Source: Pseudomonadota bacterium (GTDB taxonomy: Bacteria; Pseudomonadota; Alphaproteobacteria; SHVP01). Taken from it: a stretch of 48,838 nt of DNA. How positions within the stretch are numbered: position 1 is the first letter of the stretch; every line of letters starts with the position of its first letter. The stretch is taken from assembly GCA_027622715.1 (NCBI GenBank), contig JAQBYN010000022.1:1-48838 (forward strand), in the 5' to 3' direction. Of this stretch, positions 40,256-46,447 are shown one piece after another. The notes under the pieces were generated by a model, which ran no database searches, had not been told where the DNA came from, and worked only from the letters and a program-made list of their open reading frames with translations. The translations under genes were made by a program, and so were the position numbers.

Positions 40256-41884
40256 ATGGTCGCGTTCCAGTATCAGGACATGTTTCCGCTCGGCCCGGAC
40301 GAAACGCCGTATCGCCAAGTAAGTGACCAGTTTGTTAGCACCATCGACGTGGGCGGCAGCGAGGTCGTCAAGGTGGCGCCGGAAGCCTTGTCGCTGCTGA
40401 CAAAAGAAGCGATGCGCGACATCGCCCATTTGCTGCGCCCCGGTCACCTGCAACAGCTGCGCAACATCATGGACGACCCCGAGGCCTCCGATAACGATCG
40501 CTACGTCGCCTATGAATTGTTGAAGAACGCAAATGTCGCTGCGGGGATGATCCTGCCCGGGTGTCAGGACACCGGCACCGCGATTGTCATGGCGTATAAG
40601 GGTCAGAACGTCTGGACCCGTGGGAACGACGCCGAGGCGATCTCACGCGGCGTCTTCAGTACGTATACCGAATCATATCTGCGCTATTCGCAGATGACGG
40701 CGCTAACGATGTATGACGAGATCAATACCGGCAGCAATCTCCCGGCGCAGATCGACATTTATGCGGCCGAGGGCGATGCCTACAAGTTCTTGTTCATGGC
40801 CAAGGGCGGGGGCTCGGCCAACAAGACATTTCTGTATCAGCAGACCCGCGCGGTGCTGAACCCGACCGCCTTGATGACATTTCTTGATGAGAAGATTCGT
40901 TCGCTCGGGACGGCGGCTTGCCCGCCCTATCACCTAGCTGTCGTGATCGGCGGCACCTCTGCCGAGATGAATTTGAAGACCGTGAAGCTCGCCAGCACCC
41001 GGTACTTGGATGCGCTGCCCACTACCGGCAACGAACACGGCCAGGCGTTTCGCGACTTAGAAACCGAGGCCATGGTGCACGAGCTAACCCGCACGATGGG
41101 CATCGGCGCGCAGTTCGGCGGCAAATACTTCTGCCACGACGTGCGCGTGATTCGGTTGCCGCGACATGGCGCGAGCGTGCCCATCGGCATTGGCGTGTCG
41201 TGCTCGGCGGACCGTCAGGCCAAGGGGAAGATCACCCGCGACGGCGTTTTCTTGGAGAAACTGGAAACCAATCCGGCCAAGTACATGCCCGAAATTCGCG
41301 AAGGCGAACTGGGCGGTGACGTTGTGCACGTCGACCTCAACCGGCCAATGGCCGAAATCCTCAAACAACTATCTGAATATCCGATCCGTACCCGTCTATC
41401 GCTCAACGGGCCGATGATCGTTGCCCGCGACATCGCGCACGCCAAAATCAAAGATCGGTTGGCGAGCGGCGACGGCATGCCGCAATACATGAAGGATCAC
41501 ATGGTCTACTACGCCGGACCGGCCAAGACACCCACGGGCTATGCCTCGGGATCGTTCGGCCCGACCACCGCCGGCAGAATGGATTCTTACGTCGACGAAT
41601 TCATGGCCGCCGGGGGCAGCATGATTTCGCTGGCCAAAGGCAACCGTTCACCGATGGTGCGCAAGGCCTGCGGCAAGCATGGCGGCTTTTACCTCGGCTC
41701 GATCGGCGGCCCGGCCGCGAGCTTGGCGCAGGACTGCATCAGAAAAGTCGAGGTGCTGGAGTATCCCGAGCTCGGCATGGAAGCGGTGTGGCGCATTGAG
41801 GTTGAGAATTTCCCCGCTTTCATCGTCATCGACGATAAGGGGAACGACTTCTTTGTCGGCACTGTCGAGCGAAAAGCCGCCTAG
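40256..41884 (+). CDS. Fumarate hydratase, class I (iron-sulfur type)
   Basis: This enzyme converts fumarate to malate in the TCA cycle with a [4Fe-4S] cluster. The 542-aa single-chain product is FumA/FumB-like. The three cysteine regions are [20 protein letters not shown] and [16 protein letters not shown]. The C-terminal half carries the beta domain with [20 protein letters not shown] 40256 has AAGGAG upstream. It follows sspB by 37 bases. A class II enzyme (fumC) lies about 3 kb downstream, so both oxygen-sensitive and oxygen-stable forms are present. Confidence 0.95.
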
Positions 41885-41895
41885 AGGCGCAGAAC

Positions 41896-42396
41896 TTGGC
41901 GATCACCATCCGCGACGCCCGCCCCGGCGATGCCGGTCGGCTGATTGCGTTACAAGTGGCGTATTACAGCAGCCAGTGGAACTTTCCGGCGGGTTTTTTC
42001 GAAGCCAAGATCACCCGCGAATTGGGTGAGTTTCTTGGCCGTCTTGATGATCCACGGAATCGGTCTTGGCGGGCCGAGAGCGATGGGCAGTATCTCGGCG
42101 GCATTACAATCGACGGCAGCGCCCATCCAACGGACGCGCATCTGCGCTGGTTCATCCTAGACGACGCCGTACGCGGACAGGGTGCCGGACAGACGCTGAT
42201 GGATGCGGCGATGGATTTTTGCCGAAGCCAGGGTTTCGCCAACGTTCATTTGGCGACGTTTGCCGGCCTGGATGCCGCGCAGCGGCTTTACAAACGCGCG
42301 GGATTCCGGTTGGTCAGCGAGTATGACAGCACGACCTGGGGCAAGCCTTTGACGGAACAACGCTTCGAATGGACACCCGACGGCGCGGCACCGTGA
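41896..42396 (+). CDS. GNAT family N-acetyltransferase
   Basis: The 166-aa product has the GNAT fold. It starts AITIRDARPGDAGRLI and has the acetyl-CoA binding motif VRGQGAGQTLMDAAMDF (R-G-x-G-A pattern) and the C-terminal AQRLYKRAGFRLV. The start codon is TTG 41896, with AGAGGCGC upstream, 11 bases after the fumarase stop. Its stop overlaps the GTG of the next gene. The substrate is unknown. Confidence 0.92.
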   Translation: MAITIRDARPGDAGRLIALQVAYYSSQWNFPAGFFEAKITRELGEFLGRLDDPRNRSWRAESDGQYLGGITIDGSAHPTDAHLRWFILDDAVRGQGAGQTLMDAAMDFCRSQGFANVHLATFAGLDAAQRLYKRAGFRLVSEYDSTTWGKPLTEQRFEWTPDGAAP

Positions 42397-43787
42397 CCAT
42401 CCTGCCTGATGTGTTAACCCGCGACCTCGATGTCGTGTTTTGCGGTTCTGCCGCAAGCGCCGCATCGGCGCGGCAGGTGGCCTACTACGCCGGCCCTGGC
42501 AACAAGTTTTGGCCGACGCTGCACAAGATTGGGTTGACCGACCGGGCCTTGGCGCCGCCGGAATATCCGTTGGTTCTGACCTACCGCATCGGCTTGACCG
42601 ACATGAACAAAGCCGAGTCCGGCGGCGATAGCACGTTGTCCAAGGCCGGCGACGACCCGGCGCGTTTGCGCACGCTAATTACCGAACACGCCCCACGCTT
42701 TCTCGCCTTCAACGGCAAGCGGGCGGCCCAAGCCTTCTTCGGCCACGACGTTAACTATGGCCGTCAGCCTGAGAGTATCGGTGAAACTGCGATTTACGTC
42801 CTGCCGTCGACCTCGGGCGCGGCGTCGGGTCATTGGGATTTCATGCCGTGGCAGGAGCTGGCCGAACATGTCCGCCAGCGGCGCGTGTTCACCCGCGAAG
42901 ATCACGAGTTGGACGCCCTGACGCCGGAAGCGCGCGAGGACATGCGGGTATCGCTGAACCGGCGGCTCTATCACCGCATCGGGCTCGACCTGCGCAAGAA
43001 GCGCGACGAGAGCGAGTTCGCGTCGCGCATGACATCGCTGCCGCAGATACGCCGCCTGAAGCGCATCGTCGAGGACACGGCGGCTGCATTTCTGGGTGGG
43101 CCCGCGGCTTTTCTGGGGCTTTCAACGCTTGGTCTAGACGCCTATGTCGACGATTTCTTCGCGGCCTACCCTGAGCGTCCAGTGCAGGATAATGAAGGCG
43201 GCACCAAGTTCGCCGATTCGTTCTGGCTTTATCTCCTAAGCCGGTTGATTGCGCCGACATTCATCGTTGAAAGCGGCGTGCACCGTGGGCATTCGACGTG
43301 GCTATTGCGCCTGGGCAGCCCGCGGGCAGATATCCATTGTTTCGATGTGAGTTTTCGCAGCCTGGTGTGGCGCGACGACGCGACCTACCACGAGCACGAC
43401 TGGATGACGGACGACCTTTCGGCGCCGCCGGGTGCCAACGCGTTGGCCTATTTCGACGATCACATCAGTCATGCCCAGCGCATCGTTGAAGCGCACAGGC
43501 GCGGTTTCCGGACGCTGCTGTTCGACGACGATTTCCCGGCCCACCACCTCCATGCGACCGGCCACCCGCCGCTCCCGACGTTGGCGATGATGTTCGACGA
43601 TACGCTGGAAGACGGCGAAGAAATTACCTGGCGACGGCATGGCAAGGAAAAGTCATGGACGGTGGACCTGTCCCTGCACCGCGCCGCGCGGGCTCTGATC
43701 GCGGACTACGCCAAAACGCCCGACCTCGGGCCGTTGCTGCGCATGCGGCCGCAATCGGGGATCGCGGTCGTCAAGCTGCGCGACTGA
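42393..43787 (+). CDS. Fusion: Mug-type mismatch DNA glycosylase plus methyltransferase-like domain
   Basis: Residues 1-165 of this 464-aa protein match Mug/TDG-type mismatch uracil glycosylases. ILPDVLTRDLDVVFCGSA opens it, YYAGPGNKFWPTLHKIGLT and RIGLTDMNK follow, then FLAFNGKRAA and VLPSTSGAAS. The second part (about 210-464) looks like a class I SAM-methyltransferase fold: FIVESGVHRGHSTWLLR matches motif I (E-x-G-x-x-x-G), followed by the acidic HCFDVS. No frameshift is needed; the frame is continuous. GTG 42393 overlaps the GNAT stop and gives the usual Mug start; an upstream ATG at 42369 adds eight residues. I do not know this domain pairing from described proteins. The second domain's activity is inference. 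Confidence 0.8.
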   Translation: MTILPDVLTRDLDVVFCGSAASAASARQVAYYAGPGNKFWPTLHKIGLTDRALAPPEYPLVLTYRIGLTDMNKAESGGDSTLSKAGDDPARLRTLITEHAPRFLAFNGKRAAQAFFGHDVNYGRQPESIGETAIYVLPSTSGAASGHWDFMPWQELAEHVRQRRVFTREDHELDALTPEAREDMRVSLNRRLYHRIGLDLRKKRDESEFASRMTSLPQIRRLKRIVEDTAAAFLGGPAAFLGLSTLGLDAYVDDFFAAYPERPVQDNEGGTKFADSFWLYLLSRLIAPTFIVESGVHRGHSTWLLRLGSPRADIHCFDVSFRSLVWRDDATYHEHDWMTDDLSAPPGANALAYFDDHISHAQRIVEAHRRGFRTLLFDDDFPAHHLHATGHPPLPTLAMMFDDTLEDGEEITWRRHGKEKSWTVDLSLHRAARALIADYAKTPDLGPLLRMRPQSGIAVVKLRD

Positions 43788-45052: not shown

Positions 45053-46447
45053 TTGGCAACGACCCGACAAGAAACCGACAGCATGGGCACCGTTGAGGTG
45101 CCTGCCGATCGCTATTGGGGCGCGCAGACGCAGCGCAGCTTGGAGAATTTCCGTATCGGCGGGGAGCGGATGCCGGCGGCGGTCATTCACGCGCTGGGCG
45201 AGATTAAGCGCGCGGCAGCAGAGGCCAATTCAGCGTCCGGCGACCTGGACGGCGCAGTGGCAGCCGCCATCGTACAGGCGGCCGAAGAAGTGGCGGCGGG
45301 CACACTTGACGACCACTTTCCGTTGGTTGTTTGGCAGACTGGCTCAGGCACCCAGACCAACATGAACGCCAACGAGGTCATCGCCAATCGCGCTAACGAA
45401 ATTCTCGGCCAGCCGCGCGGCGGCAACGACCCTGTGCATCCCAACAACCACGTCAACATGGCGCATTCGTCGAACGACACATTTCCGACGGCCATGCATG
45501 TTGCGGCTACGCGCGAGACCGTCAGTCGGTTGTTGCCAGCCCTCGATGGGCTGCAGCGGACGCTGGGCGAAAAAGCCCGCGCGTGGGAAACCATCGTGAA
45601 ACTCGGGCGGACCCATCTGCAAGATGCGACGCCGATGACACTGGGGCAGGAGTTTTCCGGCTACGCCGCCCAAGTCGCGGGCGCCATTGCGGGGATTAAG
45701 CTAGCCCTTGGCCCGCTCTATGAATTGGCGCAAGGCGGTACGGCGGTAGGCACGGGCCTCAACGCGCGCGCCGGTTTCGGCGCGGCCATCGCGGCGCGGA
45801 TCGCTGAGCGCACCAAGATGCCCTTTGTAAGTGCGCCCAACAAATTTGCGGCGCTGGCCGCCCATGACGCGCTGGTCGGCGCGAGCGGCGCGCTGAACGT
45901 CGCGGCCACGGCATTGATGAAGATCGCCAACGATGTTCGTCTGCTTGCCTCGGGGCCGCGGTCGGGCCTGGGCGAGTTGATTCTGCCCGCCAATGAGCCC
46001 GGCTCATCGATCATGCCGGGCAAAGTCAATCCGACGCAGGCCGAAGCGCTGACCCAGGTCTGCGCCCAGGTCATGGGCAACACGATCACCGTGACAATCG
46101 CTAACGCCGGCGGCCATCTCGAACTCAACACCTACAAACCGGTGATGATCTACAACCTCTTGCAATCGATCGGCCTATTGGCGGACGCATCGGCCAGTTT
46201 CGATGCCCATTGCGTTCAGGGGATCGAACCCGACCTCGACCGGCTCGACTCACTGATGCGCCAGTCGCTCATGCTGGTCACCGCGTTGGCGCCACATATT
46301 GGCTACGATCAGGCGGCAGAAATTGCCAAGCGCGCGCATGCCGAGGCGATATCGTTGCGCGAGGCGGCGTTAGCCTCGGGGCTGGTCGGCGCGGCGGATT
46401 ACGATTCGTGGGTTGATCCCACGACAATGACGCGACCCCGCGTTTAG
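45053..46447 (+). CDS. fumC: Fumarate hydratase, class II
   Basis: FumC is the iron-independent, heat-stable fumarase of the TCA cycle. The 464-aa product has the superfamily signature [13 protein letters not shown], the substrate site [12 protein letters not shown] and [20 protein letters not shown], and the N-terminal [22 protein letters not shown]. The start is TTG 45053, the only one that keeps the normal N-terminus; an ATG at 45083 would remove part of it. Length is normal. It follows the cupin gene by three bases. Confidence 0.97.

Follow-up and report, generated by a model that had tools for sequence, protein, structure and literature searches.

The stretch of DNA analysed here (the window, 48,838 nucleotides) carries on its forward strand an open frame at 42393–43787 that encodes a single protein of 464 amino acids followed by a stop codon. 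By Pfam, the genes at this locus run in the order patatin-like, sspB, class I fumarase, GNAT, the gene studied here, LysE, cupin, class II fumarase and RHH_4, and this order is common to the family relatives, with GNAT and cupin missing in some of them. The class I and class II fumarases, which are unrelated to each other, bracket the locus (40256–41884 and 45053–46447) in an arrangement that is kept in relatives. The gene starts with GTG and ends with TGA. The longest possible open reading frame would begin at an ATG at 42369; the start used is the GTG at 42393, with which the ATG of the closest relative (G001) aligns and which runs into the TGA stop of the preceding GNAT gene (41896–42396, forward strand), a four-base overlap that reads GTGA. 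An earlier note on this DNA, made from the letters alone, had described one uninterrupted frame joining a Mug-type DNA glycosylase to a methyltransferase-like domain, and the translation bears this out. Bacterial uracil-DNA glycosylases are mostly single-domain enzymes. Here, the join is open and conserved: the Mug-type glycosylase and the methyltransferase-fold domain form a genuine two-domain protein, in which domains of two known kinds are paired in a new way.

The glycosylase half comprises residues 1–164 (42393–42884), in good agreement with the roughly 165 amino acids proposed in the earlier note. It matches the Pfam model UDG at 6.9e-11 (42.8 bits, the cut-off being 24.3), and its best solved relative is PDB 2c2p (E 2.7e-34), residues 17–184 of which align with fusion residues 3–164. 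Matches to the NCBIfam models for Mug fall short of the cut-offs (82.6 of 144 bits and 49.6 of 402.6 bits). A full-length model reached a mean pLDDT of 66.3 in this half and was not used for it. Matches to diphtheria repressors at E 0.9 were dismissed as noise.

At the position of the loop that reads GINPG in E. coli Mug, according to the text cited (PMC12001322), sequence comparison places CGSAA (residues 17–21; 42441–42455). The note's reading of a CGSA variant was thus correct, and the GINPG loop with the catalytic Asn of classical E. coli-type Mug does not occur in this half. In the alignment with 2c2p, Asp79 (42627–42629) is the equivalent of Asp93 of Deinococcus MUG; it is invariant in seven of seven rows, and the aligned position holds Asp in 2c2p and Ala in 2c2q. 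According to a review, Asp93 is the catalytic residue of Deinococcus MUG, and the enzyme was assigned to a class newly set up for it, MUG2, whose substrate range is broader (PMC5128194). Given this kinship and an Asp79 kept in all seven rows, the CGSA variant is the ordinary form of the MUG2 class. Judged by sequence, the glycosylase half belongs to the MUG2 class of the Mug/TDG family and retains the catalytic Asp of that class, and it is likely to be an active glycosylase.

Some further observations concern glycosylases in the host and its relatives. The same genome holds four UDG-family matches, the fusion being the weakest and the other three lying on C37, C67 and C6. The glycosylase half has a net charge of 0 to +1 in three fused copies, compared with +3 to +11 in three separate, basic relatives. 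A ThyX gene (Pfam Thy1) is found within a few kb of a Mug-type gene in two families (L062:569–1510 in G006 and L068:2393–3385 in G025). The supply of thymidylate bears on how much uracil enters DNA, but at this distance and in a sample of two the nearness is only a hint.

Residues 213–464 (43029–43784) are predicted to form a domain of the class I methyltransferase fold preceded by leading helices. A model of residues 166–464 based on eight sequences has a mean pLDDT of 82.7 and a pTM of 0.80, with values below 50 for residues 166–171 and 189–213. The best row returned by Foldseek is the O-methyltransferase Rv0187 (6jcl; E 2.5e-6), with modest TM-scores of 0.39 by query and 0.52 by target; identity in the rows is 10–19%, and most of the first 50 are O-methyltransferases, KsgA and ErmE being among the few exceptions. 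Realignment with VIA-align of Foldseek's top 1000 chains yielded tied rows near Z 13, the cation-dependent kind leading (2hnk_A: Z 13.1, rmsd 4.8 over 185). Absence from these fold lists was not taken as excluding any family. Sequence profiles agree with the fold matches. A profile of 18 rows, four fused (the window's copy included) and 14 separate, finds the O-methyltransferases 8gxn (5.6e-5), 2hnk (9.9e-5) and 2gpy (4.2e-4) and, weakly, CmcI (0.066), and its comparison with a profile of ten canonical O-methyltransferase rows gives 94% and E 1.3e-7 over the 47 columns from motif I to strand 2.

The SAM-motif-like ESGVHRG and the acidic residue following it, both pointed out in the earlier note, find their place in this fold. 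ESGVHRGHS (residues 293–301; 43269–43295) aligns with motif I of canonical O-methyltransferases and lies at the end of strand 1, which spans residues 290–294 in the model. Asp318 (43344–43346), at the end of strand 2, is the expected ribose ligand by analogy with Glu92 of Rv0187 (PMC6543040). Eleven residues are invariant in all 18 rows: E293, G295, G299 and D318 in this region, followed by F354, D355, D356, H357, R363, G371 and D379. The C domain of the window reaches no Pfam or NCBIfam model, which makes its family a candidate for annotation. Model, fold searches and profiles thus agree with the note's methyltransferase-like second half as a predicted fold, modelled at good confidence and with its SAM motif conserved; the nearest known enzymes are predicted to be the cation-dependent O-methyltransferases. 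The domain is likely to be active and SAM-dependent, a claim less certain than that of an active glycosylase.

Two acidic stretches may form a metal site. FDDH (residues 354–357; 43452–43463) is identical in 18 of 18 rows and lies at the end of strand 4 (residues 350–354 in the model), and FDDD (residues 377–380; 43521–43532) lies at the end of strand 5, with D379 kept in 18 and D378 in 17 of the 18 rows and D, N or S at position 380. In Rv0187, the metal ligands are Asp139, Asp165 and Asn166, and Lys142 is the general base (PMC6543040). Comparison by hhalign is confident only for motif I to strand 2; forced alignments leave the remainder, metal residues included, out of register, and the register between DDHIS in the C domain and DADK in the canonical rows is not fixed. 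No evident counterpart of the general-base Lys of the canonical enzymes follows DDH. The Pfam family Methyltransf_3 does not match the window's domain; with E values of up to 0.1 allowed, it is matched by four of the 18 rows, the best at 8e-4.

Between the two halves lie a variable acidic linker (residues 165–187; 42885–42953; net charge −4) and an invariant basic block, LNRRLYHRIGLDLRKKRDESEFASR (residues 188–212; 42954–43028; net charge +4). The block, which falls in the poorly modelled part of the C-terminal model, is identical at 25 of 25 positions in G001 and G006 and at 22 of 24 in G004; three species from two genera thus have the same block, and a third genus has nearly the same. The linker and residues 213–258, which flank it and change faster, show 48% and 36% identity, respectively, to G006 and 38% and 33% to G004. 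Between the window's genome (G000) and G001 the block has a pS of 0.83, and since synonymous sites have changed to this extent, the constraint acts on the protein. Compared with G006, pS is 0.32 in the block against 0.61–0.66 in the rest, a value drawn from 25 codons only.

No convincing counterpart of the block was found in 14 separate relatives of the C domain or in 190 genomes of the class. A search of these genomes with 28 residues covering the block recovered G000 and G001 (about 5e-14) together with three matches at E 0.03–0.08, which were rejected as chance: two contain stops, and the third (G135, L060) was judged to lie opposite a peptidase-like gene. When the block was compared with the first 60 residues of the 14 separate relatives, the scores of 10 were no better than those of ordinary shuffles, and for the four better ones (L006, L034 first copy, L030 and L028) 6, 6, 22 and 27 of 500 shuffles were as good. 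Over 14 trials this signal is weak; it may hint at a faint common origin of the block within the C-domain family.

The fusion is matched in six of ten genomes of the host's alphaproteobacterial family, and its absence from the matches in the other four indicates that it is not essential. It is whole in three of the ten, G000, G001 (82% identity) and G006 (62%), which represent two genera, so that the search for the same architecture in other genomes, proposed in the earlier note, did recover the join. In a third genus (G004) both parts are present, each reaching a contig end; G002 holds the C part only, from the first base of its contig, and G007 the first 39 residues only, up to the end of its contig. 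Rough dN/dS values against G001 are 0.04–0.13 in both domains, with dS near or above 1, and against G006 they rise to 0.40 in the C-tail and 0.54 in residues 213–258, where change is faster. Selection has maintained the fusion in a single alphaproteobacterial family, represented here mainly by metagenome assemblies, and the retention of the joint protein in several related bacteria implies that the pairing is probably useful.

Outside this family the fusion was not found in searches of the class, the phylum and genome contigs, which are samples that rare fusions could escape. Among 385 genomes of the class, the C-domain profile has matches in 17; in 13 the match lies below E 1e-20, and of these 13 only G000, G001 and G006 are fused. 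In 398 genomes of the phylum, the glycosylase profile matches 113 and the C-domain profile 40, six strongly; the window's is the one fused copy among these six, and the others are open frames of 282–327 amino acids with no glycosylase match. A two-pattern peptide scan of genome contigs from 84,980 species recovered seven loci, three in the host family and four without an adjoining glycosylase. Likewise, no MUG match was found in 39 loci with a C domain or a weak hit, some of which are overlapping views of one place. One genome, G037, encodes a separate C domain and has no match of the MUG2 type to the glycosylase profile, from which it follows that the C domain can do without the glycosylase.

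The surroundings of the separate genes offer some clues to their function. Among seven hand-chosen neighbours of separate C-domain genes, from six genomes, the Pfam hits include TylF-type and DegT-type genes (G209), a glycosyltransferase (G403), a 2OG-Fe(II) oxygenase (G099), a Cys/Met-metabolism enzyme (G101), a B12-binding radical SAM protein (G156) and a luciferase-like gene (G131). Few and hand-chosen as they are, these neighbours suggest that the acceptors are hydroxyl groups on sugars or small molecules and not DNA. In G135, a tandem pair of distant C-domain relatives was observed (L116:367–1950). In G025, a separate MUG2 gene lies directly 3' of sspB (L068:3790–4832), as in the fusion locus minus its fumarase gene, and this order suggests that the locus first held the unfused gene and gained the C domain later.

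Limited searches for a phage or mobile origin returned nothing related: a single peptide pattern, scanned against viral contigs, was matched 25 times but never by a relative, tblastn against phages and plasmids gave no match at E 1e-5, and PHROGs gave no family for the 18 C-domain rows. PADLOC, a similarly limited search, found no defence match for the fusion and three neighbouring genes. In the titles and abstract openings of open-licence papers, no such fusion is reported.

Taken together, we favour, with a probability of roughly 0.6, a working base-excision glycosylase with a tethered SAM-dependent domain that resembles O-methyltransferases and may use a metal, both activities and the use of metal being putative. 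The N-terminal half would flip a uracil-type base out of DNA and hydrolyse its glycosidic bond with the help of the Asp, in the manner of Deinococcus MUG, so that an abasic site remains. Its C-terminal partner would bind SAM in its class I fold, perhaps hold a divalent metal through the acidic residues that end strands 4 and 5, and move the methyl group to an acceptor hydroxyl, more likely on a small molecule or sugar-like group than on a DNA base. The conserved basic block may position the two halves or contact DNA or a partner. The conserved fusion and its invariant block hint that base excision is linked to some acceptor or regulator; D79, E293, D318, D356, D379 and block 188–212 are the residues of interest.

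Alternatively, the C domain might be a diverged, non-catalytic methyltransferase fold that serves as a sensor, for example of SAM, or as a scaffold, leaving the glycosylase as the sole enzyme. The lack of an evident general-base Lys, the fast variation of the C-tail and of residues 213–258 relative to G006 and the missing Pfam match of the window's domain are in line with such a role. However, all 18 rows, the 14 separate relatives among them, agree in motif I, D318, FDDH and D379, which is beyond what a scaffold would need, and we regard this explanation as unlikely. Also unlikely in our view, and slightly more so, is a fusion of convenience, in which neighbouring or inserted genes were joined in the ancestor of the family and both halves work uncoupled on unrelated substrates. 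Separate relatives of both halves, the lone C domain of G037, the MUG2 gene after sspB in G025 and the housekeeping genes flanking the fusion would all fit this history. Yet the fusion has been kept in at least three genera, counting the pieces in G004, and a passive join would not need the near-invariant block between the halves.

The earlier note had also considered that the second half modifies bases, coupling their removal to their modification. Methylation of DNA or of a nucleobase at the excision site would make sense of the covalent link to a DNA-acting domain and of the basic block, with its net charge of +4, between the halves, and TrmR, annotated as acting on tRNA 5-hydroxyuridine, is among the fold matches (5zw3_B, Z 12.5). 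Amino and C5 DNA methyltransferases carry a catalytic motif of the form [N/D/S]-P-P-[Y/F/W/H] or Pro-Cys. Neither occurs in residues 165–464, the top folds are for the most part O-methyltransferases of small molecules, and the C domain is acidic in the window (net −8) and in G001 (−10), though +3 in G006. With several separate relatives lying beside sugar or small-molecule genes and the C domain of G037 occurring without a MUG2-type match, this proposal is not supported, and we hold it to be very improbable. More speculative still, and something of a long shot, is sequential action on one lesion: the glycosylase would make an abasic site or free a hydroxylated pyrimidine, after which the O-methyltransferase domain, kept near it by the basic block, would methylate the newly exposed hydroxyl, for instance capping the abasic sugar against strand break. 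If true, this would place a methylation step inside base-excision repair, and we know of no description of such a step. An artefact of assembly or annotation, finally, is rejected because G000, G001 and G006 carry the whole frame in a shared gene order, so that the join is real as its homologues indicate; nothing was found in favour of an artefact, the pieces in G004, G002 and G007 each ending at a contig end. With a methyltransferase fold predicted, its SAM motif conserved and the same join present in homologues, neither of the outcomes that the earlier note named as refuting its reading came about.

The tethered enzyme that we favour can be set against three known kinds of protein. Separate members of the C-domain family (for example G037, G212, G104, G156, G101 and G385, and more distantly G131, G099, G135, G209 and Alteromonas) show 25–43% identity in the alignment and share its invariant residues; they differ in being unfused, and block 188–212 is absent from them or marginally similar only. 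The cation-dependent O-methyltransferases of the Methyltransf_3 family (Rv0187/6jcl, 2hnk, and the caffeoyl-CoA and catechol enzymes) share the predicted fold, the region from motif I to strand 2 by profile, and acidic residues where strands 4 and 5 end, which are not aligned residue by residue. They carry D-A-D-K and D-N where the C domain has DDH and DD(D/N), with Asp rather than Asn at position 380 in the four fused rows. In addition, the window's domain falls below Pfam recognition, and the fusion has extra N-terminal helices as well as the glycosylase. The MUG of Deinococcus radiodurans (DR_0715, 2c2p) can be aligned over residues 3–164, has the catalytic Asp in the same place and likewise lacks the Asn of GINPG, its loop reading VGTAPSG where the fusion reads CGSAA. 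In contrast to the fusion, the 2c2p chain has 199 residues and aligns to the N-terminal part only, to which the fusion adds a C-terminal part of 300 residues.
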